Below are positions 8,411 to 24,250 of a stretch of DNA of 64,000 nt, one piece after another. Numbering within the stretch: the first letter of the stretch is position 1; every line of letters starts with the position of its first letter. The stretch is from Phocaeicola abscessus CCUG 55929 (GTDB lineage: Bacteria > Bacteroidota > Bacteroidia > Bacteroidales > Bacteroidaceae): NCBI RefSeq assembly GCF_000312445.1, contig NZ_HE997184.1, positions 9,346-73,345 on the forward strand, given 5' to 3'. Below the pieces are notes generated by a model. It ran no database searches, was not told where the DNA came from, and saw nothing but the letters and a program-made list of their open reading frames with translations. The position numbers and the translations under genes are program-made.

Positions 8411-10261
8411 ATGGCAGATAGTAAAGAAAAACTCTTTTCGGATTTTATCCCCACCTCTACCCAAGAGTGGCTGGATAAAATTACAGTCGACTTGAAAGGC
8501 GCTGACTTCGGGAAGAAATTGGTTTGGAGAACCAACGAAGGTTTTAACGTGCAACCCTTTTACCGAAGGGAAGACGTGTTGAAACTCAAAACGCCCGACG
8601 CTCTACCGGGCGAATTTCCCTATGTGCGCGGCAACAAGAAAGACAGCAACGTATGGTACATCCGACAGAACATCTATGCAGACGAAGCGGCCACAGCCAA
8701 CGCCAAAGCCCTCGACGTGCTGAACAAAGGCATCGACTCCTTGGGCTTCCACATTTGCGGAAACGAGGTGAGCGTCGAATTCATCGATGCACTATTGCAA
8801 GGCATCGCATGCGAAGCGGTGGAACTCAACTTCACGACGTGTCCCAAACATGTCCTTGAACTGTCGCGAATCCTGACGGCTTACTTCGAACAGAAAGGTT
8901 GCGACAAGAAGCAACTGGTAGGTTCCGTCGATTTCGACCCGATCAAAAAGATGGTCATGGAGGGGAAGGATGCCACCCCGTCGCTCGGCATAGCCCCGAA
9001 ACTGATCGAAGTATGGAAAGATTATCCTCACTTCCGTTGCATCACGGTCAACAGCGAATCGCTCAACAATGCCGGCGCTTACATCGCACAGGAATTGGGC
9101 TATGCCCTCTCGTGGGGTAACGAATACTTGCAGGAACTGACCGATGCCGGCGTAAACGCAGACCTCGCCGCTACGAAGATCAAGTTCAACATGGGCGTAT
9201 CGGAAAACTACTTCATGGAACTGGCCAAGTTCCGTACGGCCAGAATGCTTTGGGCGCAAATCGTCAGAGAATATGCTCCGAAGCACGACGAGTCGTGCCA
9301 GATGATCGTCAATGCGACGACTTCCAAGTATAATCAGACACTCTTCGACAGCTACGTCAACCTGCTCCGCTCGCAGACGGAAGCGATGAGCGCCGCTTTA
9401 GGAGGCGTCCACTCCATGGTCGTTACGCCGTTCGACTCTTGCTACGAGAGCCCGACCGATTTCTCGGAACGCATCGCCCGCAATCAACAGCTGCTGCTGA
9501 AAGAAGAAAGTCACTTCGGACAGATCGTCGATCCGGGAGCAGGCTCTTACTATATCGAAGAATTGACCGACAGCCTGGCAAAAGTGGGTTGGGACCTCTT
9601 CCTCAAGATCGAAGAGGAAGGCGGATTCCTCGCAGCCGTAAAAGCCGGAACAGTGCAGGACGATATCAACGCTACGAACGCGAAACGACATGGCGATGCA
9701 GCCAAACGCAAAGAATTCATCCTCGGCACCAACCAGTTCCCGAACTTCAAAGAAAAATCGGAAGGCAAGCAAGCCACCGCCAGCCAATGCGGCTGTGGCA
9801 AGGAGGAAGAACCTCCGTTCAAATCGATCAAGAGTACCCGCTTGGCCGCCGACTTCGAAGATCTCCGCATCCACACGGAAAACAGGAAGGTTCCGACAGC
9901 ATTCATGCTGACCATCGGCAACCTGGCCATGCGTCAGGCCCGAGCACAGTTCTCCTGTAACTTTCTGGCCTGCGGCGGTTATCACGTGATCGACAACCTC
10001 GGTTTCAAGACCGTGGAAGAAGGCGTCGACGCGGCATTGGCCGCCGGAGCCGATATCGTGGTGCTCTGTTCGAGCGACGACGAATACGCTGAATATGCCA
10101 TTCCGGCATTCAAGTATCTGAATGGCCGCGCCATGTTCGTCGTGGCCGGAGCTCCCGCCTGCATGGAAGATCTGAAAGCTGCAGGCATCGAGAACTTCGT
10201 TCATATCAAATGCAATGTGCTCGACACACTGAAAGAATACAATCAAAAATTAGGAATTTAA
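8411..10261 (+). CDS. mutA: Methylmalonyl-CoA mutase small (beta) subunit
   Basis: This is the non-catalytic partner subunit of the adenosylcobalamin-dependent mutase that interconverts succinyl-CoA and methylmalonyl-CoA in propionate metabolism. It is 616 residues, as expected for the family. The N-terminal TIM-barrel-like half (SDFIPTSTQEWLDKI; FDSCYESPTDFSERIARNQQ) and the C-terminal cobalamin-binding-like fold are both present. The fold lacks the DxHxxG cobalamin ligand motif, as is usual for MutA. A Cys-rich linker (QCGCGKEEEPP, about residue 460) joins the two halves. mutB starts 27 bp downstream. Confidence 0.95.
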   Translation: MADSKEKLFSDFIPTSTQEWLDKITVDLKGADFGKKLVWRTNEGFNVQPFYRREDVLKLKTPDALPGEFPYVRGNKKDSNVWYIRQNIYADEAATANAKALDVLNKGIDSLGFHICGNEVSVEFIDALLQGIACEAVELNFTTCPKHVLELSRILTAYFEQKGCDKKQLVGSVDFDPIKKMVMEGKDATPSLGIAPKLIEVWKDYPHFRCITVNSESLNNAGAYIAQELGYALSWGNEYLQELTDAGVNADLAATKIKFNMGVSENYFMELAKFRTARMLWAQIVREYAPKHDESCQMIVNATTSKYNQTLFDSYVNLLRSQTEAMSAALGGVHSMVVTPFDSCYESPTDFSERIARNQQLLLKEESHFGQIVDPGAGSYYIEELTDSLAKVGWDLFLKIEEEGGFLAAVKAGTVQDDINATNAKRHGDAAKRKEFILGTNQFPNFKEKSEGKQATASQCGCGKEEEPPFKSIKSTRLAADFEDLRIHTENRKVPTAFMLTIGNLAMRQARAQFSCNFLACGGYHVIDNLGFKTVEEGVDAALAAGADIVVLCSSDDEYAEYAIPAFKYLNGRAMFVVAGAPACMEDLKAAGIENFVHIKCNVLDTLKEYNQKLGI

Positions 10262-10288
10262 TGGGATTCGGTTATACACACAGAAGTC

Positions 10289-12451
10289 ATGAGAAAGAAT
10301 TTTAAAGACATAGACATTTATGCAGGTATCAAGGCCGAGAACGGTTCGGAATGGCTGAAAGCCAACGACATTAAGCCGAACTGGAAGACGCCTGAACACA
10401 TCGAGGTTCGCCCCGTGTACACGAAAGAAGACCTGGAAGGGATGGAACACCTGGACTTTGCTGCCGGTATTCCGCCTTTCCTCCGCGGTCCGTATTCCAT
10501 GATGTACCCGTTTCGCCCGTGGACGATCCGCCAGTACGCCGGATTCTCTACGGCGGAAGAATCCAATGCCTTCTACCGCCGTAACCTGGCATCGGGGCAA
10601 AAAGGGCTGTCGGTCGCATTCGACCTTCCCACCCACCGCGGTTACGACCCCGACAATGCGCGCGTCGTAGGCGATGTGGGAAAAGCCGGCGTCTCCATTT
10701 GCTGCGAAGATAATATGAAGGTGCTGTTCGCAGGCATTCCGCTGAACAAGATGTCCGTATCCATGACCATGAACGGGGCCGTGCTCCCTATCCTCGCCTT
10801 CTACATCGTAGCCGGTCTGGAACAGGGCGCCAAGCAGGAAGAAATGGCAGGCACCATTCAGAACGATATCTTGAAAGAGTTCATGGTGCGTAATACTTAC
10901 ATCTATCCGCCGTCGTTCTCCATGAAGATCATCGCCGATATCTTCGAATACACGTCGCAGAACATGCCCAAATTCAACTCCATCTCTATCTCCGGATATC
11001 ACATGCAGGAAGCCGGAGCGACAGCCGATATCGAGCTGGCCTATACCCTTGCCGACGGCATCGACTACCTCCGTACCGGCGTCAATGCCGGTATTCCGGT
11101 GGATAAATTTGCGCCTCGCCTGTCGTTCTTCTGGGCGATCGGCATGAACCATTTCATGGAAATAGCCAAGATGCGCGCCGGACGTTTGCTATGGGCCAAG
11201 ATCGTGAAAAGCTTCGGCGCACAAGATCCGAAGTCGCTCGCCCTCCGTACGCACAGCCAGACATCGGGCTGGTCTTTGACGGAACAAGATCCGTTCAACA
11301 ACGTCGGCCGTACCTGTATCGAAGCGATGGCCGCCGTGCTCGGCCATACGCAGTCCTTGCATACCAATGCCTTGGACGAGGCGATTGCATTGCCGACGGA
11401 CTTCTCCGCACGCATCGCCCGCAATACGCAGATTTACATTCAGAACGAGACGAAAGTCTGCAAAGAGATCGACCCGTGGGCAGGTTCCTACTACGTAGAG
11501 ACACTGACTAACGAGTTAGTTCACAAGGCATGGGAACATATTCAGGAAATCGAGAAACTCGGCGGGATGGCCAAAGCCATCGAGACTGGTCTGCCGAAAA
11601 TGCGTATCGAAGAAGCCGCCGCCCGGACTCAAGCTCGTATCGACTCCGGCGCCCAGACCATTGTCGGCACCAATAAATATCGATTGGAACACGAAGATCC
11701 CATCGACATCCTCGAAGTCGACAATACCGCCGTACGCAAGCAGCAGGAAGACGTGCTCGTAGAGGTGCGCGCCCATCGGGACGAAGCCGCATGCGAGGAA
11801 GCGTTGAAAGAGATCACCGAATGTGTCCGCGAATTCCACGAAGGAAAGAAGAGCAAGGATAACTTGCTTGCACTGGCCGTCAAAGCGGCTCAACTCCGCT
11901 GTACGCTCGGAGAAATCAGCGACGCCTGCGAAAGTATCGTAGGCCGATATAAAGCTATCATCAGAACAATTTCAGGCGTGTATTCATCAGAAAGTAAAAA
12001 CGATAAGGACTTTGACGTGGCTTGCAAGCTGACCGATGAGTTCGCAAAAAAAGAAGGTCGACGGCCGCGTATCTTCATCGCCAAGATGGGACAGGACGGG
12101 CACGACCGCGGTGCGAAAGTCGTGGCAACCGGTTATGCCGACTGCGGCTTCGATGTGGATATGGGACCCTTGTTCCAGACCCCAGCGGAAGCCGCCCGCG
12201 AGGCTGTCGAGAACGACGTGCATGTGGTAGGCGCTTCTTCGCTGGCTGCAGGTCATAAAACCTTGATTCCTCAATTGATTCAGGAGCTGAAGAAACTCGG
12301 ACGCGAAGATATCATGGTCATTGCCGGCGGCGTAATCCCTGCACAGGATTACGACTTCCTGTACAAGGCAGGCGTAGCAGCCGTCTTCGGCCCCGGAACA
12401 TCCGTAGCCAAAGCGGCTTGTAAAATCATGGAAATTCTCTTGGAAGAATAG
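10289..12451 (+). CDS. mutB: Methylmalonyl-CoA mutase large (alpha, catalytic) subunit
   Basis: This is the catalytic subunit of methylmalonyl-CoA mutase, 720 residues. The TIM-barrel substrate domain occupies about 1-560 ([52 protein letters not shown]). The C-terminal B12 domain carries the cobalt ligand motif DGHDRG in [20 protein letters not shown], followed by GASSLAAGH and [11 protein letters not shown]. It is in an operon with mutA. The accessory GTPase meaB is in the same window at 23144 but not adjacent. A strong hairpin terminator follows at 12474-12513. Confidence 0.97.
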
Positions 12452-12681: not shown

Positions 12682-13740
12682 TTAATACGCGGTGCCCGCC
12701 CTATTGGTAATCTTCAGGTTAGTGCCGTCCCAATTCAGGAAGGTGTGATACACCTTGCCTTTTTGTACCGTCCTGCCGGGGAGGTTGTTGGTGGAGTAAT
12801 CATAAGAGCCAGCGTCTTTCTGTAGCATTCTCGCCCCCATTTGATTGACTTGGTCGGTGCTGACCAACCAGCGGTAGAGAACTAGCTCGGCACCGGCTGC
12901 TAACTTCTGACCGTAGAGAGGAAGAAAACTTTGGTCATTAATAGAAAAACTGACGCACTGCTTGTACCGCCAACGGGGGTAATCGGTAGTAATCTCTCCG
13001 GTGGTTACATCCATTGTCAGTGACTGAGAGCCATGCAATCCGTTCCTGATAAAAGAGGAAGCAGACTCCGACGGATACTGGAATCTTATATACGTCGGCA
13101 ATTGCCTCTCCATGCCGGTGCTGTTCTTCAGGTGAAGCGCCATGATCCAGCCGGTGTGCGCAAGGTCGAGGGTGAGTGTGTTCAGCCCGGCTTTTGTAAT
13201 CCCCGTGCGTGAGAAGAGCAGCATGGGGTTAATGATGCCGTTTCCCCGTTCTCCTCCCTTATCCAATGTGACACCAAAATAATCCTCCGAAACAAGCTTG
13301 TAGTTCGCCGTGCCGGCTTCGAATACGCCACCATAAGTCTCATCCATGTAAGGCCTTTGGTACACGGCATAGAAGTCGAAAGTATCTCCGGCGCCTATTT
13401 CAGTGGGCATCTCCCACGTGAACTTCGCCGTCTTGCCGTCTGCGCTGATGCTGCCCGGCACGATGGTTGCGTCTTTGTGGTAATAGGCAACACCCTTCTT
13501 GAAGCAGAGCTTCAGCTTGTCGTCGGCCGTCCACTTCATCACGACGCCCGAAACGGAGGCACCGTCAGGCTCGTACGTGGCACGGGTGGCGGCGTCATCG
13601 GTGAACTGGGGCATGGTGGCTTGCAGGGTGATGACACGTGCGTTACTGTCTTGGCTGTCTTGCACAGCCTCTGGCAGGTCTTGGTTGGAGCAGCCGGCCG
13701 CTATCAGGGCAAGGGCTGCGAGGGTCAATTTTACTTTCAT
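12682..13740 (-). CDS. Fimbrillin-family (Mfa/FimA-like) lipoprotein
   Basis: This predicted surface lipoprotein has 352 residues. The signal peptide has a lipobox (LIAAGCSN, Cys near residue 17). The body shows the beta-rich fimbrillin pattern: VITLQATMPQFTDDAATRAT near the N-terminus with an arginine before the possible protease-processed strand, then KWTADDKLKLCFKKG and TFDFYAVYQRPYM. Bacteroidales fimbrillins are lipid-anchored, cleaved after Arg or Lys, and polymerise by donor-strand exchange. Whether this one polymerises or is an accessory or tip protein cannot be told. A 49-residue gene lies 28 bp upstream in the same orientation. Confidence 0.8.
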   Translation of the reverse strand: MKVKLTLAALALIAAGCSNQDLPEAVQDSQDSNARVITLQATMPQFTDDAATRATYEPDGASVSGVVMKWTADDKLKLCFKKGVAYYHKDATIVPGSISADGKTAKFTWEMPTEIGAGDTFDFYAVYQRPYMDETYGGVFEAGTANYKLVSEDYFGVTLDKGGERGNGIINPMLLFSRTGITKAGLNTLTLDLAHTGWIMALHLKNSTGMERQLPTYIRFQYPSESASSFIRNGLHGSQSLTMDVTTGEITTDYPRWRYKQCVSFSINDQSFLPLYGQKLAAGAELVLYRWLVSTDQVNQMGARMLQKDAGSYDYSTNNLPGRTVQKGKVYHTFLNWDGTNLKITNRAGTAY

Positions 13741-14603: not shown

Positions 14604-15383
14604 TCAGTAATTATGGATACTTACTCCTTGCGCCGAAGGTAAATAATTGATACCGTACCAACACATCTGCAACAGCAGGAAGGAAAACAAGATCAGGGCA
14701 AAGGCCGTGTAGGGATCCTTTAATTGCGGACGCAGATGCAAATAAAGCGCATAGGCGAACCACGTAGCGGCCGCCCAGGTCTCTTTCGGGTCCCACGACC
14801 AGTAATCGCCCCAAGCTTGCTTCGCCCAGAGGGCTCCCATCACCATACCCAAGCTAAGGAAGACCCATCCGATGCGAACGAGGTTGTCGCAGATCTTCAT
14901 CTCACTTTCGGTCACTTCACGATGTGAGGGACGGAGCCACAGATACAGGGCGAAAACGGCGGCCGCTCCCAATAAAGCATAGGCCATCATATAGACGATC
15001 ACGTGGGGGACGAACCAGGCGCTTTGCAAAGCCGGCATCAGCGTCCGATCGTGAATCTCCGGCTTGAACAGGTTAACGCAGATGAAGACGGTAGCCACGA
15101 TCGTACTGAAGGTCAACAGCCAGGAATATCGGTATCTGGCATACATCGCTATGCCGGCCACCGACAAGAAAAGGGAATACCAAAGCCTCGTCTCGCCTAA
15201 GGTTCGCATGGGCGGCCTCTCCAACGATATCCACAGGCCGAGGATGAAGATGAAAAAGACAGCAGAACCGATACTCGATGCCGTGACGGCTTTCCATACC
15301 TTCCTGTGGAAAGCGAATATCGCGCCGATTGTCCAACAGAGGGTGGCTATCGAAGCGTAACAGATTAAATAGTCCCAACTCAT
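14604..15383 (-). CDS. ccsA: CcsA/CcmF-type cytochrome c assembly protein (heme handling)
   Basis: This is the inner-membrane heme exporter/ligase component of system II cytochrome c maturation, which acts with ResB to attach heme to CxxCH motifs in the periplasm. From the ATG at 15383 it has 259 residues with about seven or eight membrane segments. The tryptophan-rich WWD heme-binding signature is present (WAKQAWGDYWSWDPKETWA), with flanking histidines (FVPHVIVYMMAY). The start is chosen because it overlaps the end of the ResB-like gene by 4 nt (ATGA), which implies translational coupling. The longer frame to 15557 is only overlap. Confidence 0.88.
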   Translation of the reverse strand: MSWDYLICYASIATLCWTIGAIFAFHRKVWKAVTASSIGSAVFFIFILGLWISLERPPMRTLGETRLWYSLFLSVAGIAMYARYRYSWLLTFSTIVATVFICVNLFKPEIHDRTLMPALQSAWFVPHVIVYMMAYALLGAAAVFALYLWLRPSHREVTESEMKICDNLVRIGWVFLSLGMVMGALWAKQAWGDYWSWDPKETWAAATWFAYALYLHLRPQLKDPYTAFALILFSFLLLQMCWYGINYLPSAQGVSIHNY

Positions 15384-16570
15384 CGGGCGTTCCCCCTTCT
15401 GTCGCCTGCGGCAAAAAGTATCCACGCGCCCGTTAGCAACAATAGCCATAGTGCGATGCGGACGGCCTGGTACCAACTGTCGTGAACACATTCGAACACG
15501 CTGCTTGTGCTCCATCGCCCCCTTCGAGTATCGTAACCGGCTTGATAGATGTACCAACTTCCCATCCGGGCGGGGTGGTTGACCGTTATCCGGAAAGGAT
15601 GTATTTTCCCGCGTTCGTCTCTTACCGATATATCGGACAGATAATGTTTCGCCGTACGAGGCGGCATGAAGAGCGCGTACCGGTCATCCACCATCAGATA
15701 GGAAGGATCGAAGAGGAAGCTCCCGCAGCTGACCCATCCGGAAGCTTGCCGCTTTGTCCGCCGGTTGAGGGCATGGAGACGAAGAGCCGGCGCAGCCCCT
15801 ATGTGTTCCAATTCGCGGAAGCCGGCGCTGTCGGGGACGGCCGTCTCGTAGCATCGCTCGGCTTTTATCTCCCATTCGCCTAAATTACCTCTCTCTCCTG
15901 CCCGTTCCAACATAATATGCGCTTCGGAAGTCGAGCCGCTTAGGGTGTCGACCATATGGATCTTGGCGGGATACTCCTCCATGGAGAATGCATGCAGGGT
16001 AATGGTGAAAGGAAGCAAATAGGGTTTGCCTTCGTGGATTCCGGTGTCGGTCGGTTCGTTTTGTTGTGCCGAGACGCGTACTCTTACCTTGTCGCCGCTC
16101 CCGAATATTCCGGCGAGCAGTACGACGAAAACGCACGAGTGCAAAAGCATGAGGACGGGTTTCCTTTGACGGAAATGATACAGATCCTCGACGAGGTTGA
16201 GTCCTAAAGTCGTAGTAAAGTATATCAGCAGGATGTTGAACGGCCACGAAGCGGTCATCCGGGTAAAGCCCAAGGCGCTTAACAGACCGGTTCGATGGAC
16301 ATCTTGCCGGACAAGACCGAAGAGGACGGTTATCATTACCATCGAAGCTAAGGAAGCGACGCAAGCGTAACGATCGTAGAACTTGTGCAGGCGGGGGTAC
16401 CTGTCCGCCGAATAGTTGAAGACAAATAGCAGATAAACGTAGAGCGCAGCCCCTATCGCCCCCCAGGGATAACGTAGGAACGAAGGGTCGAGGTCGCCTG
16501 CGATGAATTGAAAAATTATGCCTGCCGAAAACAGGCAGGCACAATATATGAAAGCTTTTTTATATCCCAT
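15380..16570 (-). CDS. resB: ResB/Ccs1-like cytochrome c biogenesis protein
   Basis: This 396-residue membrane protein matches the ResB/Ccs1 partner of CcsA, which keeps apocytochrome and heme in place for ligation. Hydrophobic segments fall near residues 7-25, 35-52, 68-90 and 105-125. A large periplasmic domain (about 165-365) includes LPFTITLHAFSMEEYPAK and ITVNHPARMGSWYIYQAGYD, and a last membrane segment near the C-terminus follows (IALWLLLLTGAWILFAAG). It overlaps ccsA by 4 nt and follows the TIM-barrel gene by 25 bp. It is in one operon with the cytochrome gene at 18945-20486, its probable client. Confidence 0.85.
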   Translation of the reverse strand: MGYKKAFIYCACLFSAGIIFQFIAGDLDPSFLRYPWGAIGAALYVYLLFVFNYSADRYPRLHKFYDRYACVASLASMVMITVLFGLVRQDVHRTGLLSALGFTRMTASWPFNILLIYFTTTLGLNLVEDLYHFRQRKPVLMLLHSCVFVVLLAGIFGSGDKVRVRVSAQQNEPTDTGIHEGKPYLLPFTITLHAFSMEEYPAKIHMVDTLSGSTSEAHIMLERAGERGNLGEWEIKAERCYETAVPDSAGFRELEHIGAAPALRLHALNRRTKRQASGWVSCGSFLFDPSYLMVDDRYALFMPPRTAKHYLSDISVRDERGKIHPFRITVNHPARMGSWYIYQAGYDTRRGRWSTSSVFECVHDSWYQAVRIALWLLLLTGAWILFAAGDRRGNAR

Positions 16571-16595
16571 TGCATGGTGATAGAAAGATGTTCGA

Positions 16596-17525
16596 TCAGG
16601 CTTGTTCCCACTGAGTTCTCAGCAGTTCAACAGCGGCCGGCAACGTCACGTTCTTGTCGCCTTTCGATCCGCATTCGAAGCTGACGTACTTGGAATAGCC
16701 CATTTCTTTCAATGCACGGAATCCGTCGACGTAGTTATCCAAGTCTCCGTCTTCGCCGGGCATGATGCGATGGCCTCGGCTAGCTATGTGAATATGTTGC
16801 AAGTACTTTCCTCCCGACCATAGGGCGCCGTAATCCGAAGTTTCTTCTCTCATGTGCCAAAAGTCGCCCATGCATTTCACCCCTTCGCTTTGAGCGTCGC
16901 GTGCAATGGCTGCGGCGTCGGCTACGAGGCGCATATAGAATGCTTCTTCTCTGTTGAGGGGTTCCAAGATTACATTCGTTCCGCATTTAACGGCATACTC
17001 GCCTAACTCGTGCAGCTGTTCGCACAAGTAGTCGCGCGTTTCCAAGGTATGGGGTTTGCAGGGTTTCTGCGAGTTGAAAGCCGGCACCATGATCACGCCG
17101 GTGGATCCGAGTTCGCCTGCAGCGGCAACGATCTCGCGCATGCTTGCATCGAACTGCGCTTTCACCTTGGGATCTTCGGCCAAGATAAAGCCGTCGAACC
17201 CTGCACATATCGCCGACACCTTGATACTGCGGTTCTTCAATGCGTCTTGAATCTCTTGCACTCTCCCCGCTAATCCTCGTCCCCAAGGTTCGAAGCCGAC
17301 AATTCCCATCTTCTCCATATAATCGAGCTTTTCATTCAGGCTTTCGAAGGGGGCCGTGTTTTCTTGAAAAGACAGATTCAAAAGGACTTCGCCAGTTTTC
17401 GTCCCTTTCGTTACTGCTTTTTCCTGCACTTTCTTTGCGCAGGATGAAAGTCCGAAAGGAGAGGATGCGGCGGCCAATGTGGCCATGCCGGCCAATGACC
17501 GCTGTATAAATTGTTTTCTATTCAT
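16596..17525 (-). CDS. Exported TIM-barrel sugar isomerase/epimerase/lyase-like lipoprotein
   Basis: This 309-residue protein belongs to the xylose-isomerase-like TIM-barrel (hydroxypyruvate isomerase-like) family. An N-terminal export signal (NRKQFIQRSL, then a hydrophobic run) ends at LSSC with Cys29 as a probable lipid anchor. The arginine pair is R-K rather than R-R, so Tat export is possible but not certain. Metal-ligand-like residues are in place: Glu in VILEPLNREEAF, Asp and His in MGDFWHM, His in HIHIASRGHR, Glu in YVSFECG. It lies 21 bp behind the Tat-exported Gfo/Idh/MocA gene. Family members isomerise sugars or eliminate from keto-sugars; the substrate is unknown. Confidence 0.85.
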   Translation of the reverse strand: MNRKQFIQRSLAGMATLAAASSPFGLSSCAKKVQEKAVTKGTKTGEVLLNLSFQENTAPFESLNEKLDYMEKMGIVGFEPWGRGLAGRVQEIQDALKNRSIKVSAICAGFDGFILAEDPKVKAQFDASMREIVAAAGELGSTGVIMVPAFNSQKPCKPHTLETRDYLCEQLHELGEYAVKCGTNVILEPLNREEAFYMRLVADAAAIARDAQSEGVKCMGDFWHMREETSDYGALWSGGKYLQHIHIASRGHRIMPGEDGDLDNYVDGFRALKEMGYSKYVSFECGSKGDKNVTLPAAVELLRTQWEQA

Positions 17526-17546
17526 GATCGTGTCTTTAAGAGATGA

Positions 17547-18920
17547 TTATTTCTTTTCCATTTCTGCATTTCCGGGAACCGGAACCGTATACGTAGACAT
17601 ATCCATCGATCCGAATTCCAATTTCTTCGGCAAGTAATCCATTTCGGATGCCGTGATATCGTCCCACGTAATGGTTTGCCCCGTGTAGGCGGCTTCGCGT
17701 CCCATCACGCCCGCCAGGGTAGAAATGCCTGTTTCTTCCGATTCGTCGTGGCCTTCGCCCTTGCGGATATGGTTCACCCAATCGACGTGCTCCAGCACGT
17801 ACGGATTCTGTTGCTTGAACTGGGCTTTAGAGGCTTCTTCGTCGAATTTCCAGATCACGTTGCCTGCCAAGTCTTTAATTTCATGCGTTTCACTGTTCCA
17901 GGATCCTTTCGTGCCTTGGATGAATTCGCTGACATTCGTGCTGCAACCGTCTATCTGCCGGCACATACTATGTAGATGTATGCCGTTTCCGAATTCGAAA
18001 TCGACGCTGAAGTTATCGTACTGATCGCCTGTAATGCGGCGTTGCCGACTTCCTACCGCCGTTGCTTTAACGGGATGCAATCCGGTCATCCAGAGGAAGA
18101 TGTCAATGTTATGCACGTGCTGTTCCACGATATGGTCGCCGGATAACCATTTCCAGTTCACCCAGTCGCGGATCATCCATTCCATATCGCTCCATCCCTG
18201 TTGGCGCGTACGGTACCACAGCATGCCCTGATTCCAGTAAACGTTACCGCCGGTGATTTCGCCGATCAGGCCTTCCTGAATCTTTTGGAAAGCTTCGACG
18301 TACGGACGCTGATGATGGCGCTGCGTGCCGGTTACTACGCTGAGCCCTTTGGCGACGGCCTGTTTCGACGTGGCCATGATGGTACGATATCCTTTCGAGT
18401 CGACAGCTATGGGTTTCTCCAGGAACGCATGTACGCCTTTTTCGACTGCGTATTGGAAGTGAGCCGGGCGGAACACCGGAGGGGTCGTTAAAATGACCAT
18501 GTCGATACCCGCATCGATCACTTTCTGATAGGCGTCGAATCCAACAAAACACCCTTCGTCGGGAACCTTTTGATCGTATTTTTCGGCCAACATTTTCTTT
18601 ACGCTCTCCAACCGATCGGAGAACACGTCGCCCAAAGCGACTACGGTAATGCCGTCGGCCGCTTCTAGTAAGTTTTCGACCGCACCCGAACCTCGACCGC
18701 CGCATCCGACCAAACCGACTTTCAACGCTTTGCCCTCGACGGCTTTGTCCGGAAGTTCCGGTACGTAATATTCACCCGGTTGTTTCAACGGAGTGTTTGC
18801 AGAACCTCTCTCCTTGCCTGTGCACGATGAGAGAATGGATGACGAACTGATCATACCCGATGCTCCGAGCATAGCTGAGTATGAAAAAAACGACCTACGG
18901 CTAATTTTATTCTTTCCCAT
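17547..18920 (-). CDS. Tat-exported Gfo/Idh/MocA-family oxidoreductase lipoprotein
   Basis: This 457-residue protein starts with a twin-arginine signal (SRRSFFSYS, residues 7-15) and a probable lipobox (LSSC, Cys33), so it should be exported folded with its nucleotide bound. The Rossmann motif GLVGCGGRGSGA lies near residue 70. The family lysine motif LEKP follows, then a C-terminal domain with WLSGDHIVEQHVHNID carrying the usual acid/His pair. Family members oxidise or reduce sugars with NAD(P); the related GH109 enzymes hydrolyse glycosides by transient NAD oxidation, so that activity is an alternative. It is flanked by the cytochrome-SUMF1 and TIM-barrel genes in one operon. Confidence 0.9.
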   Translation of the reverse strand: MGKNKISRRSFFSYSAMLGASGMISSSSILSSCTGKERGSANTPLKQPGEYYVPELPDKAVEGKALKVGLVGCGGRGSGAVENLLEAADGITVVALGDVFSDRLESVKKMLAEKYDQKVPDEGCFVGFDAYQKVIDAGIDMVILTTPPVFRPAHFQYAVEKGVHAFLEKPIAVDSKGYRTIMATSKQAVAKGLSVVTGTQRHHQRPYVEAFQKIQEGLIGEITGGNVYWNQGMLWYRTRQQGWSDMEWMIRDWVNWKWLSGDHIVEQHVHNIDIFLWMTGLHPVKATAVGSRQRRITGDQYDNFSVDFEFGNGIHLHSMCRQIDGCSTNVSEFIQGTKGSWNSETHEIKDLAGNVIWKFDEEASKAQFKQQNPYVLEHVDWVNHIRKGEGHDESEETGISTLAGVMGREAAYTGQTITWDDITASEMDYLPKKLEFGSMDMSTYTVPVPGNAEMEKK

Positions 18921-18944
18921 GATATTAATTTTTTAGGGTTAAAA

Positions 18945-20486
18945 TTATTGTTGTTTTATATGGATTCCTTCCGGTATTTCACAAACGACACGAAAGCCGA
19001 TGCCTTTGATATCCGAATACCACCAGATGCTCTTCGGATTTTGCGGATCGGTCTTCAGCCAAGCGTCGTTTTCGGTATGTCCCCGCGTTGCGCAACGAAG
19101 TGCGGACGCGTCGTCCCGATAGCTCCCTCCGCGCACGACGTATTCCTGACCTTTTTCGTTAAGGGGATCTTTATCGCCGTCTTTCCAGTGCTTGTATGCT
19201 TCCGCATCGTACTTGTCGGCGCAATATTCCATCACGTTGCCCAACATATTCTTCAGTCCGAAAGGATTGGCTCTGACCTTCGACGGTTCTTGCGTCTTAT
19301 CCATGCTGTTGTTGGCATAGACGACGTAGCCGTTGATATTCGTGGTGTCGACGCCGAACAGTTTGTTCCAAAATCCTTCGTTGGTGTACTTCTTCGGATT
19401 TCCTTCGAAGAAGTACGGCGTAGTTGTTCCCCCGCGAGCAGCGTATTCCCATTCGGCCTCTGTCGGCAAGCGATAGCGCTTGCCCGTCTTCAGCGACAAC
19501 CATTGGCAGAATGTTTCTGCGGCGTAATGAGTCATGGTAATTGCCGGTCGACTGCCCATTCCCCAGCCTTGATCCGGGAAGCCGAACGGAGGTGTGGGGC
19601 CGGAAACGGCGTCGAGATCATCGCGCGAATTGTTCGCGTAGATAGTCTCCGGCGAGGTGCGTCCTTCCGACATCGTTTCGTTGTAGAACGCCCAGAACTG
19701 ATCCCACGTCACTTCCACTTCAGCCATAAAGAACGGTGAAACGGCGATCCGGCGCTGAGGCGCCTCGTCTGTCTGGTGGAACGGTTCATCATCGGGACTT
19801 CCGATAGTGAATGAGCCTCCGGGAATAGCGATCATATCGATGGATGCAGCGGTTCCGGGAACCGTTTCCTTGTAATTTTTGAAGTCGGTAACGATGGCGG
19901 CGGCCTCATATTTCGTTCTGTTGTTCGTCAGGGCCTTTCCTTCCATCTTGCTGTGTTTGTAATTCGGATTGTAATGTCCCGCGTCCAAGTGGCAGCTGAT
20001 GCATTGCAGATCGAATTTCTTTTCGTTCTCTTCGTAATAGAGGTGAGCCTTGATACCGTCGTCAGAGATACCTTTCGGGAAAAGATTGGCATGGCACGCT
20101 TTGCAAGATTCGTTATACACGATCTTTTGCGCATAATCCAATTCGCCTTTGCGGTCCCAATTGATGTCTTCTTTCTTTTTAGTCATATACGACCAAATAT
20201 CTTTGATACCCATCTTCGCTTTTGCGGTAAAGTGTTTGAAAGTGCCGCGAGGCGGAAGGTGACAAGCTGCACAATCAGTTTTTACACCGCTTTTGTTATT
20301 GTTATAATGTACGGATTGCTTCCATGCAGCATCTGCTTTCTCATGGTAATGACACATCATGCAAGATTCGTTGGTCGAGGTGGCCTCCCACATCCAATCG
20401 AATGCGATCATTGCTGCTATTCCGATAACAAGTCCTCCTAAACCTACAAGTAAAGATCTCTTCTTTTTATTACTTGAATTTGCCAT
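18945..20486 (-). CDS. NapC/NrfH-like tetraheme cytochrome c fused to a SUMF1-type domain
   Basis: The protein has 513 residues from the ATG at 20486. A basic N-terminus and one membrane anchor (residues 11-29) precede four c-heme motifs: CMMCH (42-46), CAACH, CKACH and CISCH. This is the arrangement of membrane quinol-oxidising NapC/NrfH proteins. From about residue 215 it becomes a formylglycine-generating-enzyme/SUMF1-like domain (IDMIAIPGGSFTIGSPDDEP; RLPTEAEWEYAARGG; VVRGGSYRDDASALRCATRG; GFRVVCE). The RCATR cysteine matches one of the two catalytic cysteines of formylglycine-generating enzyme but the partner five residues before it is absent, so that activity is unlikely. The operon supplies ResB/CcsA for its maturation. 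Confidence 0.88.
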   Translation of the reverse strand: MANSSNKKKRSLLVGLGGLVIGIAAMIAFDWMWEATSTNESCMMCHYHEKADAAWKQSVHYNNNKSGVKTDCAACHLPPRGTFKHFTAKAKMGIKDIWSYMTKKKEDINWDRKGELDYAQKIVYNESCKACHANLFPKGISDDGIKAHLYYEENEKKFDLQCISCHLDAGHYNPNYKHSKMEGKALTNNRTKYEAAAIVTDFKNYKETVPGTAASIDMIAIPGGSFTIGSPDDEPFHQTDEAPQRRIAVSPFFMAEVEVTWDQFWAFYNETMSEGRTSPETIYANNSRDDLDAVSGPTPPFGFPDQGWGMGSRPAITMTHYAAETFCQWLSLKTGKRYRLPTEAEWEYAARGGTTTPYFFEGNPKKYTNEGFWNKLFGVDTTNINGYVVYANNSMDKTQEPSKVRANPFGLKNMLGNVMEYCADKYDAEAYKHWKDGDKDPLNEKGQEYVVRGGSYRDDASALRCATRGHTENDAWLKTDPQNPKSIWWYSDIKGIGFRVVCEIPEGIHIKQQ

Positions 20487-20591
20487 AATAGAATTAAAAC
20501 GATCCTGCGGTGGTATGCTGCATATATCCCATCCTTCGCTGAGGGAAGGTTCCATTGAAAATGCGCCGCGAGCCTATCCTCTTCAAGATGC

Positions 20592-20622
20592 CAAATTTAG
20601 TGATTTTTTATATATCGGCAAA
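20592..20622 (-). promoter_or_regulatory. Promoter of the cytochrome-SUMF1/oxidoreductase/ccs operon
   Basis: On the minus strand TTTG (20622-20619), 19 nt, then TAAATTTG (20599-20592) match the consensus at both boxes. Transcription would begin near 20585, giving a 99-nt leader with a CCTTC/GAAGG hairpin before the ATG at 20486. This separates the five-gene operon from the oxidoreductase gene at 20642-21814. Confidence 0.75.
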
Positions 20623-20641: not shown

Positions 20642-21814
20642 TTATTTCTCGATCCATTTTTGCCATTTTACCTCCTTGTGATAGCCGGCTCTCACCATGG
20701 TTTCGATGAACTGCATACCGCGCACGCCGTCTTCGACGGTAGGGAAGTCCAGCATCTCTTCGGTAGGTGTTTCATTATTCGCTTTGGCACGAACCGTCCA
20801 TGCAAAGTTGCGGTAGATGTTTGCAAACGCTTCGATGAAACCTTCGGGGTGTCCGCCGGGAATGCGCGTATTCCACTTGGTGAAGTCGGTCAATGAAGCG
20901 TAGCCGTTACCGATTCGGATTTCCTCTGTCGGGCGGTCGATCCATTTCATATATAAAGTATTGGGTTCCAGCTGTCGCCATTCCATTCCGCCGTTTTCGC
21001 CGTAAACGCGCAAGCGGATATTGTTTTCTTCGCCCGCAGCGATTTGCGTGGCCTGCAGTAGGCCGGAGAACCCCTGGTCGAAGTGCATGAAAGCACATGC
21101 ATCGTCGTCCAGGGGGCGTCCGTCGGCGATATGTTGAAGTTCGGCGCAGACCTCTGTCACCTTTGCACCGGTCACATACTCGGCCAGGTGCCAGGCGTGC
21201 GTGCCGATATCGCCTACGCAACCTCCTTTTCCGGCTGCTTTGGGATCGTTGCGCCATACGGCATTGTTCCCTCCTTTCAGTTCGATGCGTTGGGTGAGCC
21301 AGCCTTGCGAATATTCCACGAAGAGGCGGCGCACTTTGCCGATGTCTCCGCGTGCAATGCGTTTCTTCGCTTCTTTTACTGCCGGATAGGCGCTATAGAC
21401 GTGGGTCAGAGCGAATGTCAAGCCTGTCGCGCGGACTTTGTCGCGCAGCCTCAAGGCTTCTTCCAGCGAGTAAGTCATCGGTTTGTCTATCACGACGTTG
21501 AATCCGGCTTCGAGTGCTTTCATCGCCGGTTCATAATGAAACTTGTTAGGGGTGACGATAGTGATGAAATCGATGCGCTCTTCGTGTGGAAGGGCGGCCT
21601 CTTTTTCTATCATTTCCTGCCAAGTCGGGTAGATTCGGTTATCGGGGATGAAGTAAGAGCGGCCGGAACTCCGTGAAATTTCCGGATCGATGCTGAAACA
21701 GCCGCAAACGAGTTCTATTTGATTCTCCATGAGGGCGGCGCGGCGATGGATGGCGCCGATAAAAGCATCGCTGCCTCCGCCTACCATACCCATTCTAAGT
21801 TTTCTGTTTTCCAT
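20642..21814 (-). CDS. Cytosolic Gfo/Idh/MocA-family oxidoreductase
   Basis: This is a 390-residue NAD(P)-dependent dehydrogenase-like protein without a signal peptide. The N-terminal Rossmann domain has MGMVGGGSDAFIGAIHRRAA, the catalytic-lysine motif is VIDKPMTYSLEEA, and the C-terminal domain has GCVGDIGTHAWHLAEYV with the D-x3-H pair. The start at 21814 is the first codon giving a normal Rossmann N-terminus; a TATTTTTG -7 box lies upstream at 21849-21856. It lies just before the exported redox operon but has its own promoter. It may act on the cytoplasmic product of that system; the substrate is unknown. Confidence 0.88.
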   Translation of the reverse strand: MENRKLRMGMVGGGSDAFIGAIHRRAALMENQIELVCGCFSIDPEISRSSGRSYFIPDNRIYPTWQEMIEKEAALPHEERIDFITIVTPNKFHYEPAMKALEAGFNVVIDKPMTYSLEEALRLRDKVRATGLTFALTHVYSAYPAVKEAKKRIARGDIGKVRRLFVEYSQGWLTQRIELKGGNNAVWRNDPKAAGKGGCVGDIGTHAWHLAEYVTGAKVTEVCAELQHIADGRPLDDDACAFMHFDQGFSGLLQATQIAAGEENNIRLRVYGENGGMEWRQLEPNTLYMKWIDRPTEEIRIGNGYASLTDFTKWNTRIPGGHPEGFIEAFANIYRNFAWTVRAKANNETPTEEMLDFPTVEDGVRGMQFIETMVRAGYHKEVKWQKWIEK

Positions 21815-22052: not shown

Positions 22053-23147
22053 ATGAAATCGATCGGAAAGATAAAACATATCGGCTGTTTATTCGTCGTT
22101 TTAATCGGTTCGACGGGTTCTTTTCTCGCTCAACCGGCAGTAAAGGTGGAAACGCCGGACAAAAACCTGGGTATCATCTTGTGGAAAGCGCCTGTGACGG
22201 TGAGCTACAAGTTGGTCAATGCGGGAAACGAGGCGCTCGTCGTTCGGAAAATAGAAACCTCTTGCGCTTGCGCGGTGGCGGACTGGCCGAAGACGACGAT
22301 TGCTCCCAGGAAATCGGCTGAAATCAATGTGACGTACGATGCTAAGCAGTTAGGACATTTCCATAAATACGCGGCGGTATATACGAATGCCGACAGGCAG
22401 CCCGTGTATCTGACTTTCCGTGGGGAGGTGGCGACGGAATGGACGGAGGATATCTCTTCGTTCCCCAACCAGATCGGGCCTATCCGCTTGGATCGGGCTT
22501 CGATCGAGTTCGACGAAGTGAACAAGGGAGATCGGCCCTCGGTCGAGCTGAAGGTGATGAACGGCTCCGACGGCATCTATTCCCCGGTACTGATGCATTT
22601 GCCTCCTTATCTCTCTGCGGAGGTGACTCCGGAAAAGATCGAAAAGAATCGGGTGGGTAAGATCAAAGTGATGCTGGACAGCGAGAAATTGCCCAAGTTG
22701 GGACTTACTACGGCCTCGGTCTATCTGGCGCGTTATCCCGGCGACATGGTGGGCGAAGAGAACGAAATCCCGATTTCGGTAGTCAATCTGCCCGATTTCT
22801 CGCATCTGGATGTAGACCGGCAAGAGCATCCGCCCGTGGTCACGCTCTCGACGAAAGAATTGGAGATCGGCACGATGATGGAGACGGAAGAGAGGAATGC
22901 CCGGATAACAATTACGAATACGGGAAAATCGAAGCTGGAGATCCAAGACTTGCAGGTGTTTAATTCCGCCCTCGGCGTGCAGTTGAACAGGCGCATCCTG
23001 CCTCCCGGAAAGAAAGCCAAGCTGAAGATTACGGTCTACGGAAATCATTTGCGTAAGATCAAGAATACCCCTCGCGTACTGATGATCACCAACGATCCGA
23101 ACCAACCCAAAGTGATTATTAAAGTAAAAGTAGCATTAAACGAATGA
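22053..23147 (+). CDS. DUF1573-domain exported protein
   Basis: This 364-residue protein has an N-terminal signal sequence (MKSIGKIKHIGCLFVVLIGS) and Ig-like beta domains of the DUF1573 type. The marker is KIETSCACAVADWPK near residue 70, followed by IAPRKSAEINVTYDA and a second related repeat ending ITNDPNQPKVIIKVKV. DUF1573 proteins are common, uncharacterised periplasmic or surface proteins in Bacteroidota. Its stop overlaps the meaB start by 4 nt (ATGA), so the two are translationally coupled although no functional link is known. Confidence 0.85.
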   Translation: MKSIGKIKHIGCLFVVLIGSTGSFLAQPAVKVETPDKNLGIILWKAPVTVSYKLVNAGNEALVVRKIETSCACAVADWPKTTIAPRKSAEINVTYDAKQLGHFHKYAAVYTNADRQPVYLTFRGEVATEWTEDISSFPNQIGPIRLDRASIEFDEVNKGDRPSVELKVMNGSDGIYSPVLMHLPPYLSAEVTPEKIEKNRVGKIKVMLDSEKLPKLGLTTASVYLARYPGDMVGEENEIPISVVNLPDFSHLDVDRQEHPPVVTLSTKELEIGTMMETEERNARITITNTGKSKLEIQDLQVFNSALGVQLNRRILPPGKKAKLKITVYGNHLRKIKNTPRVLMITNDPNQPKVIIKVKVALNE

Positions 23148-24250
23148 GTGAGATGGAACATCCCGAAAACGATCGACGATATAAAGGACTGAAAGTGAAC
23201 GACGGCGTACCGCAGCCGGCCATCGTGAATCCTTATTTGAAAACGCAGCGGAAAGCGCGCCGCAAATACTCGGCGGCCGATTACGTAGAAGGCATTCTCA
23301 AAGGAAGCGTAACGGTACTCAGTCAGGCCGTGACGCTGATCGAAAGCCTCCGCCCCGAACACCAGGCCATCGCCCAGGAAGTCATCGAAAAATGCCTGCC
23401 TTATTCGGGACATTCCGTCCGCGTAGGCATCAGCGGAGTGCCCGGAGCAGGCAAGAGCACCTCTATCGACGTATTCGGCCTGCACGAACTGGAAAAAGGA
23501 GGCAAGCTGGCCGTGCTGGCTATCGACCCGAGCAGCGAACGGTCGCACGGGAGCATTTTAGGCGATAAAACCCGCATGGACCATCTGGCTACGCATCCGA
23601 ACGCCTTTATCCGACCCAGCCCGTCGGCCGGATCGTTGGGCGGCGTAGCGCGAAAAACGCGCGAGACCATCATCCTCTGCGAGGCCGCCGGATTCGATAA
23701 GATCTTTGTCGAAACGGTGGGAGTAGGGCAGAGCGAAACCGCTTGCCACAGCATGGTCGATTTCTTCCTGCTCATCCAATTGGCGGGCACGGGCGACGAG
23801 CTGCAGGGCATCAAACGCGGCATCATGGAGATGGCCGACGGCATCGTGATCAACAAGGCCGACGGCAATAATGTGGATAAAGCCCGGATGGCGGCGACGC
23901 ATTTCCGCAACGCCCTGCATTTCTTCCCTGTCCCCGATTCGGGATGGACACCGAAAGTCTTGACCTATTCAGGCTTCTACGGATTGGGTATCAAAGAAAT
24001 TTGGAACATGATCGACGAGTACATCGCCTTTGTGAAGCAGAACGGCTACTTCGAGTACCGCCGCAACGAACAGGCGAAATATTGGATGTACGAAACCATC
24101 AACGAGCAGTTGAAAAACAGTTTTTACCGGAACGAACACATTGCAGACAGTTTGAAACAAGCAGAACGCGATGTGCAAATGGGGAAAATGACTTCTTTCG
24201 TCGCTGCCAACAAACTCTTGGACGAATATTTCGGGAAGCTGTCAAAGTAA
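23144..24250 (+). CDS. meaB: Methylmalonyl-CoA mutase-associated GTPase MeaB
   Basis: This G3E-family P-loop GTPase protects methylmalonyl-CoA mutase from inactivation and gates loading of adenosylcobalamin. It has 368 residues. The Walker A motif is GVPGAGKSTSID; the switch region has DPSSERSHGSILGDKTRM, typical for MeaB/ArgK; VETVGVGQSE and the base-specificity NKADG follow. The C-terminal helical dimerisation arm is present. The start overlaps the preceding DUF1573 gene. mutA-mutB are about 11 kb away in the same window. Confidence 0.95.
   Translation: MSEMEHPENDRRYKGLKVNDGVPQPAIVNPYLKTQRKARRKYSAADYVEGILKGSVTVLSQAVTLIESLRPEHQAIAQEVIEKCLPYSGHSVRVGISGVPGAGKSTSIDVFGLHELEKGGKLAVLAIDPSSERSHGSILGDKTRMDHLATHPNAFIRPSPSAGSLGGVARKTRETIILCEAAGFDKIFVETVGVGQSETACHSMVDFFLLIQLAGTGDELQGIKRGIMEMADGIVINKADGNNVDKARMAATHFRNALHFFPVPDSGWTPKVLTYSGFYGLGIKEIWNMIDEYIAFVKQNGYFEYRRNEQAKYWMYETINEQLKNSFYRNEHIADSLKQAERDVQMGKMTSFVAANKLLDEYFGKLSK

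Follow-up and report, generated by a model that had tools for sequence, protein, structure and literature searches.

In a 64,000-nucleotide stretch of the Phocaeicola abscessus CCUG 55929 genome (contig NZ_HE997184.1, positions 9,346 to 73,345; hereafter the window), we analysed a closely packed run of five genes, A to E, reading from 20486 to 14604 on the minus strand. It joins a membrane-anchored tetraheme cytochrome fused to a SUMF1 domain (A) with an exported Gfo/Idh/MocA protein (B). The genes and their linkage are solid; from them we infer, with about even confidence, a periplasmic 3-keto-glycoside-type oxidation module in which electrons pass from a sugar to B, from B to A and from A to menaquinone. 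The five genes lie where the original prediction had placed them, with the domains it had claimed, and a Pfam search agrees:

18945..20486, minus strand: gene A, fusion of a membrane-anchored tetraheme cytochrome c (NapC/NrfH type) and SUMF1, 513 residues (Pfam PF03264 and PF03781; four CxxCH motifs; 58 relatives aligned)
19962..20468, minus strand: cytochrome part of A (Cytochrom_NNT match, Pfam)
19071..19838, minus strand: SUMF1 part of A (Pfam range; alignment to human formylglycine-generating enzyme (FGE); fold matches to PvdO and FGE)
17547..18920, minus strand: gene B, Gfo/Idh/MocA lipoprotein exported by a twin-arginine translocation (Tat)-type signal, 457 residues (Pfam, structure model, fold matches)
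16596..17525, minus strand: gene C, exported xylose-isomerase-like TIM barrel, probably a lipoprotein, 309 residues (Pfam; matches to 3kws and 6wn6)
15380..16570, minus strand: gene D, divergent ResB-like cytochrome c maturation protein (PF05140)
14604..15383, minus strand: gene E, CcsA-like heme handling protein, starting MSWDYL (PF01578)

Linkage and conservation of the cytochrome-SUMF1 and Gfo genes

A scan of a genome collection for relatives of A returned 62 loci with 59 to 83% identity in the best segment, titled as Bacteroidota, nearly all Bacteroidales or its families; the nearest named relative, from Phocaeicola oris, is 83% identical. Most of them have A, B and C in this same order. 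A wider set of 110 loci comprises 87 with the fusion, 21 with a free-standing SUMF1 gene and 2 that are cut (the loci of six of the 28 A-carrying genomes described below, G011, G023, G105, G137, G190 and G205, are not included, and the genome sets may overlap, the SUMF1 parts of L012 and L124 being identical). B is the next gene at 102 of the 110 loci, and lies within 1 kb of A at 84/87 fused, 17/21 free-standing and 2/2 cut loci. The three fused exceptions are two loci at the end of a contig and L080, where about 9 kb separate B from A. A TIM barrel scoring at least 20 on the C profile stands within 5 kb of A at 64/87 fused loci (56/87 at a score of at least 300), and one is present at 56 of the 68 fused loci having at least 4.5 kb of downstream sequence. 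The predicted linkage of the cytochrome-SUMF1 gene with Gfo and TIM barrel genes is thus borne out: in related genomes they are mostly found with the cytochrome and not apart from it.

The same picture emerges at the level of the order. Genome searches scored the best candidates only (six per genome for A and B, nine for C, three in the phylum survey and twelve for hydrolases), and counts of B and of hydrolases are lower bounds. Among 247 Bacteroidales genomes, A occurs in 28 and B in 29; B is found in 28/28 genomes with A against 1/219 without it (G160; Fisher 4e-36, uncorrected for relatedness). B-type genes occupy 49 places, 30 of them within 1 kb of an A copy. The 19 that do not adjoin A weigh against strict linkage; 18 of these sit in genomes with A (hand count), as if A served them in trans. 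The close C family is present in 11/247 genomes, all of which have A, and lies on a contig other than that of A in three (G032, G043, G146), and C was therefore rejected as a fixed part of the module. Beyond this close family, more distant TIM barrels adjoin A and B at part of the loci.

Some loci depart from the simple layout. At Parabacteroides loci L053, L054, L059, L062 and L066, C is followed by a protein of 231-247 residues and one of 160-198 residues; in the L053 copies the first has no Pfam match and the second is a LuxR-type regulator. At Alistipes/Rikenellaceae loci L013, L017, L019, L020, L025, L032 and L033, a protein of 163-177 residues lies between B and C; it is cupin-like by eye, and its L013 and L019 copies match DUF6016. 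One genome (G233) has a full A copy plus separate cytochrome-only (C171:374155-374751) and later-part-only (C197:25420-26457) matches, possibly split genes or contig ends.

A matches Cytochrom_NNT (PF03264) with 94 bits (cut-off 24.1) and FGE-sulfatase/SUMF1 (PF03781) with 142 bits. Its four CxxCH motifs, at residues 42, 72, 128 and 162, are kept in 58/59 aligned rows; in the remaining row, L065, the contig ends within the gene. Heme 1 is preceded by a hydrophobic stretch in 58/59. This alignment includes the window; L011, L058, L061 and L068 of the 62 loci were left out as lying outside the cluster of open reading frames (ORFs). The cytochrome part aligns with the NrfH of the same genome across all four hemes, and a Lys/Gly/Asp stretch after heme 2 is partly conserved. 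In the second part, Foldseek matches to PvdO and FGE (E about 1e-15) identify a SUMF1 fold. The two catalytic cysteines of FGE, which bind copper, are absent from A in alignments to human FGE, and a formylglycine-generating role for this domain was rejected on that ground.

B matches GFO_IDH_MocA (PF01408, 41.6 bits) and the associated C3 domain (PF22725, 38.8 bits), both above cut-off. In an alignment of the window with 53 of 57 cluster members (over-long, cut or near-duplicate ORFs dropped by eye), an R[RK]xF[LFI] export motif together with a lipobox-like motif is found in 54/54 rows, the strict RRxF form in 35. Lys169 (in EKP), Glu266, His268 and His270 are invariant in the 54 rows; a Rossmann domain with the EKP lysine and a C-terminal domain with a catalytic histidine mark the Gfo/Idh/MocA oxidoreductases. 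The predicted structure has the Gfo/Idh/MocA fold, with a mean predicted local distance difference test score (pLDDT) of 86. The best rows in VIA-align, at Z 32 to 33 and 15 to 18% identity, belong to oxidoreductive sulfoquinovosidases (GH188), levoglucosan dehydrogenase, DgpA and an oxidoreductase of uncharacterised function (4h3v), closely followed by inositol dehydrogenases and glucose-fructose oxidoreductase. GH188 rows top this list at 15-17% identity, tied with other Gfo enzymes; rows within 1 Z count as tied, and no single activity is singled out for B. GH109 appears at ranks 41 and 47 of the Foldseek list. A B-like paralogue in the same genome (L106 7536-8858, contig C1; E=2e-103) has a SusC/SusD-like pair on each side and no adjoining A-like gene.

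C matches AP_endonuc_2 (94.7 bits), 3kws (E=3.6e-122) and the 3-keto-D-glucoside 4-epimerase 6wn6 (E=1.3e-25); by sequence it is related to YcjR-like 3-keto-D-glucoside 4-epimerase TIM barrels. None of the NCBIfam models scores above its cut-off (best 68.8 of 300 bits). Glu188, Asp221, His246 and Glu284, presumably a metal site, are invariant in 50 rows (the window and 49 of 54 cluster members, with over-long, cut or near-duplicate ORFs dropped by eye). R[RK]xF[LFI] and a lipobox-like motif both occur in 40/50 rows, strict RRxF in 38.

The SUMF1-Gfo core beyond Bacteroidales

We surveyed 395 genomes of the phylum with the A profile (E<=1e-60, best three candidates per genome) and obtained matches in 24 of them: three full-length fusions (G000, G105, G589) and 21 to the SUMF1 part only. 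The 21 free-standing SUMF1 proteins have 314 to 364 residues, are heme-free and carry an N-terminal hydrophobic stretch in 21/21 cases. A B-type Gfo gene directly follows 17/21 of their genes, with no heme in 17/17. Since free SUMF1 still stands beside B, the linkage lies between SUMF1 and B, which suggests that this pair is the wider core and the cytochrome mainly its Bacteroidales version. We built a tree of 101 SUMF1 rows, of which 82 come from fusions, 17 from free-standing genes and 2 from cut copies; one branch with full support divides the fused form from the free. It shows a single change in the tetraheme part, which occurs in Bacteroidales and in one genome outside the order, G589; gain and loss are indistinguishable because the root is not fixed (midpoint rooting only, and the program warned of long branches meeting). 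COX1 is present in 21/21 genomes with the free form and 13/29 with the fused form, so that a plain split between aerobes and anaerobes fits only partly and is confounded with taxonomy.

Genes for ApbE flavin transferases lie beside free-standing SUMF1 at L097, L118 and L122, and also at L095 and L096, a hint that the heme-free version uses an electron carrier with covalently attached flavin. Cytochrome bd oxidase genes are found within 8 kb of A at 10/87 fused loci, in two lineages and differing orientations (L026, L034, L035, L036, L039, L040, L055, L069, L075, L083; Pfam-checked for the L026 pair and L075), and may point to a shared quinone-linked role. In G007 (C53:58874-60298), A and a COX1-type gene share a contig, about 8 kb apart.

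A proposed electron route, its rivals and its genomic setting

Exported sugar-type chemistry, also part of the original prediction, is supported by the company that A keeps. The 3-keto-disaccharide hydrolase family (3keto-disac_hyd) is represented in 28/28 genomes with A and 51/219 others (Fisher 3e-16, again uncorrected for relatedness). In families where genomes with and without A are both listed, hydrolase counts are often higher in the A-carrying genome (G230, 12, against 3 each in G019 and G133), with exceptions (G112 and G212, 10 each; G169, 1, against G064, 2; G131 and G228, 12 each). This genome has five such matches; at the one inspected (L127), no recognisable Gfo gene adjoins. SusC/SusD, MFS, ThuA and 3-keto-disaccharide hydrolase genes occur in a minority of the operons. 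The run at L093 reads MFS, Gfo, a TIM barrel fused to 3keto-disac_hyd, TIM barrel, A, B, Gfo; that at L009, L010 and L053 reads SusC, SusD, U (the second Gfo gene described below), A, B, C (SusC/SusD Pfam-checked for L009). At 5/87 fused loci, A has a SusC-type gene within 8 kb. We scanned 128 neighbouring proteins with Pfam: 125 of 149 representatives of 227 operon neighbours, 24 having been dropped by eye as mostly very long or short, and three added by hand. At fused loci these include TIM barrels (4/88), 3keto-disac_hyd (2/88) and ThuA (2/88); at free loci, ApbE (4/40), 3keto-disac_hyd (2/40), GMC (2/40) and Gluconate_2-dh3 (1/40). Most other neighbours, among the first 25 families listed, have no plain sugar link.

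In the proposed module, B would be exported folded with bound NAD and would oxidise a sugar or glycoside at a ring hydroxyl, probably that of C3; C, sharing the compartment, would act on the keto-sugar by isomerisation or elimination. Because B cannot exchange NADH with the cytoplasm, it would hand its electrons to A, docking on the SUMF1 domain and feeding the four hemes and then menaquinone. A is the obvious sink, as a membrane-anchored tetraheme protein of a menaquinone-dealing family that is covalently joined to a B-linked domain. NapC/NrfH cytochromes take electrons from menaquinol, ResB and CcsA mature c-type cytochromes, and the transfer of electrons from NADH or a sugar alcohol to menaquinone is energetically downhill. 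U and hydrolases encoded elsewhere would complete the pathway, and ResB and CcsA would help to mature A. A DgpA-type Gfo enzyme purifies with bound NAD(H), and its turnover needs 3-oxo-glucose or methyl 3-oxo-glucoside as oxidant (PMC11239390); B would therefore be expected to face a reduced cofactor outside the cytoplasm.

Several observations weigh against this route. The heme 1 motif is CxxCHxH in A and CxxCHxM in the NrfH of the same genome, and the AlphaFold model of A is too weak for use in the cytochrome part (10-residue mean pLDDT 30 to 69 over residues ~40-190). B scores 23.3 of 750 bits, far under the cut-off, on the NCBI model for the BT_2158 glycoside 3-dehydrogenase (NF058561); the top Foldseek ranks are inositol dehydrogenases, and its VIA-align neighbours include redox-neutral enzymes that need no external acceptor. 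Beside heme-free SUMF1, B would be able to work without the cytochrome. The 3-keto-disaccharide hydrolases also occur in the 51 genomes without A, and genomes with A may simply be sugar-rich. The module is patchy, since A is present in 12/151 genomes of the window's own family and is lacking from 8/8 listed relatives of its own genus, where it is dispensable.

The strongest rival, unlikely in our judgment but the one to be taken most seriously, is a redox-neutral B whose bound NADH gives its electrons to a second sugar or loses them again within one reaction, A being linked for another reason, for example because SUMF1 folds or docks B while the cytochrome serves a different acceptor. It ranks first because heme-free SUMF1-B pairs exist (17/21 heme-free SUMF1 genes stand beside a B-type gene) and because the best fold rows include GH188 sulfoquinovosidases and DgpA, of which the latter re-oxidises its NADH with 3-oxo-glucose (PMC11239390). 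It leaves unexplained the near-perfect co-occurrence of A and B and the covalent joining of hemes to SUMF1.

Oxidation of a sugar through A to menaquinone also admits a broader form, to which we give a smaller chance than to a redox-neutral B. The A-B unit might be the general electron outlet of periplasmic 3-keto-sugar metabolism in these bacteria, converting a simple sugar such as glucose into the 3-oxo compound with menaquinone as acceptor; the 3-oxo-sugar would be a diffusible oxidant that re-oxidises other exported Gfo dehydrogenases, and oxygen-respiring relatives would run the SUMF1-Gfo core with a heme-free outlet. This fits because a genome has one to three places with A and up to 13 matches to 3-keto-disaccharide hydrolases, and because B-type genes are confined to genomes with A but for one. 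If true, other exported Gfo enzymes, cut off from cytosolic NAD, would gain a route of re-oxidation.

Flow in the reverse direction, from menaquinol through A to the reduction of an exported keto-sugar or a sugar-like respiratory acceptor, seems to us quite improbable. The N-terminal part of A belongs to the NapC/NrfH family, which normally carries electrons from menaquinol outward, but by redox potential menaquinol is a weak donor for NAD+ and most keto-sugars, and the link to 3-keto-disaccharide hydrolases points to oxidative catabolism. We give still less weight to the SUMF1 domain itself being a redox enzyme, with B and C acting before or after it and the cytochrome replacing oxygen as electron sink in anaerobes. 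FGE, EgtB and PvdO, known enzymes of the SUMF1 fold, are oxidative and oxygen-using, and the heme-free form is found only in genomes with COX1 (21/21, against 13/29 for the fused form); however, the FGE cysteine pair is absent, and the 13/29 COX1-positive genomes with the fused form and the confounding with taxonomy blur the split.

The original prediction had the module replacing nitrite reductase. This is not supported. In this genome, NrfH (175 bits, cut-off 134.2) directly precedes the single NrfA match (688 bits, cut-off 595) on contig C5, with none beside A, and 18/28 A-carrying genomes have full-length nrfA. Across the order, NrfA is found in 121/247 genomes at E<=0.001. Co-occurrence of A and B without nrfA was confirmed in part: the other 10/28 have none or a weak fragment. 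The NrfA here has its own NrfH; therefore A neither replaces nitrite reductase nor is its missing partner. That A is an ordinary NrfH-type partner of NrfA, as its family match and an nrfA in this genome might suggest, is scarcely credible and was rejected: it scores 58.6 bits on the NCBI NrfH equivalog TIGR03153 (cut-off 134.2), nrfA adjoins its own NrfH on another contig, and 10/28 genomes with A lack a full-length nrfA.

The window lies on contig C3 of a 2.54 Mb assembly (14 contigs, 85% complete). Genes A to D are separated by 24, 21 and 25 bases in turn, and an ATGA is shared by the end of D and the start of E. A starts at 20486 (MANSS), within a longer in-frame ORF that begins at 20555. 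Two further features lie upstream:

20592..20622, minus strand: promoter of Bacteroidota type, TTTG-N19-TAAATTTG, 5' of A, between U and A (motif scan)
20642..21814, minus strand: gene U, encoding a second enzyme of the Gfo/Idh/MocA family with no export signal, next upstream of A (Pfam; within 6 kb of A at 16/87 fused loci)

U, absent from the original prediction, is conserved in part of the relatives (within 6 kb also at 3/21 free-standing SUMF1 loci) and is a candidate cytosolic reductase of an imported keto-sugar. The predicted promoter is present and matches the Bacteroidota consensus, but taken alone it is modest evidence, because the window holds two TTTG-N19-TAAATTTG sites against 0.45 expected and 4/100 shuffles reach at least two; we dropped it as strong evidence. 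ResB and CcsA (system II cytochrome c maturation) are adjacent, both above the Pfam cut-offs: D, a divergent member, scores 39.1 bits (PF05140, cut-off 24.6) and E 107 bits (Cytochrom_C_asm, PF01578). On the CcsB equivalog model the score is 130 bits, under the cut-off of 187.6. The idea that they are A's own maturation pair is weak, given three CcsA-type genes in the genome and the presence of both near A at only 26/87 fused loci; on the latter count they were rejected as a fixed part of the module. On the opposite strand, two methylmalonyl-CoA mutase genes and a MeaB chaperone gene flank the operon (window 8411-12451, 23144-24250). At 12682-13740 lies a 352-residue ORF, lipoprotein-like by eye, without Pfam or NCBIfam match.

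Comparison with known systems

Exported Gfo enzymes are common in Bacteroidota, and A, a cytochrome linked in genomes to one Gfo subfamily, offers a testable answer to how they dispose of electrons outside the cytoplasm. If the proposed route is true, periplasmic glycoside oxidation would be a respiratory step in mostly anaerobic bacteria, and a SUMF1 subfamily without the formylglycine cysteines would gain a function-linked home. Searches of the open-licence literature turned up neither a report of a cytochrome fused to SUMF1 nor one of exported Gfo enzymes coupled to quinones.

The BT2156-BT2160 cluster of Bacteroides thetaiotaomicron is not known to encode a heme protein. It encodes a disaccharide and glucosinolate pathway with BT2158 as glycoside 3-dehydrogenase and BT2157 as 3-ketotrehalose hydrolase (PMC11300592, PMC9007349), and the word cytochrome is absent from the main text of both papers. 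BT2158 works in the periplasm (PMC11300592) alongside a further 3-keto-sugar enzyme (PMC11300592, PMC9007349), a pairing in a Bacteroidales species that the present module would share. BT2157 and BT2158 mutants had no growth defect on raffinose-family sugars according to PMC11501099, a result not used here. An NCBIfam model that matches Gfo proteins implies that BT2158 belongs to the Gfo enzymes; B, unlike BT2158, falls outside that family by the NCBI model (23.3 of 750 bits).

LacABC, the lactose 3-dehydrogenase of Caulobacter, consists of a flavin (GMC) enzyme, a small subunit and a cytochrome. It acts with a DUF1080 hydrolase and resembles our proposal in a membrane-bound, periplasmic 3-oxidation followed by a proposed 3-keto hydrolase (PMC9007349). 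In contrast to LacABC, a Gfo enzyme and an NrfH-type cytochrome-SUMF1 fusion take those places here; GMC and Gluconate_2-dh3 genes occur near some free-standing SUMF1 genes. The ycj cluster of E. coli likewise combines sugar dehydrogenases (YcjS, YcjQ) with a TIM-barrel isomerase, YcjR, that is akin to C (PMC11543891; 6wn6, E=1.3e-25). It differs in being cytosolic and is not known to include a cytochrome.

With the NrfH/NapC menaquinol dehydrogenases, A shares a membrane anchor and four hemes, the whole cytochrome part being alignable; it differs in its fusion to SUMF1, in His for Met in the heme 1 motif and in having no nitrite reductase gene adjoining in the window. B shares the Gfo fold with DgpA (Z about 32), whose activity is glycoside 3-oxidation; unlike B as proposed, DgpA dumps its electrons on 3-oxo-glucose, with no cytochrome partner described in the available part of the source (PMC11239390). 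Altogether, the enzyme chemistry is already known from the 3-keto-sugar pathway and the LacABC precedent, and it is for the proposed joining of a Gfo enzyme with an NrfH-type cytochrome by way of SUMF1 that our searches of the open-licence literature gave no precedent.

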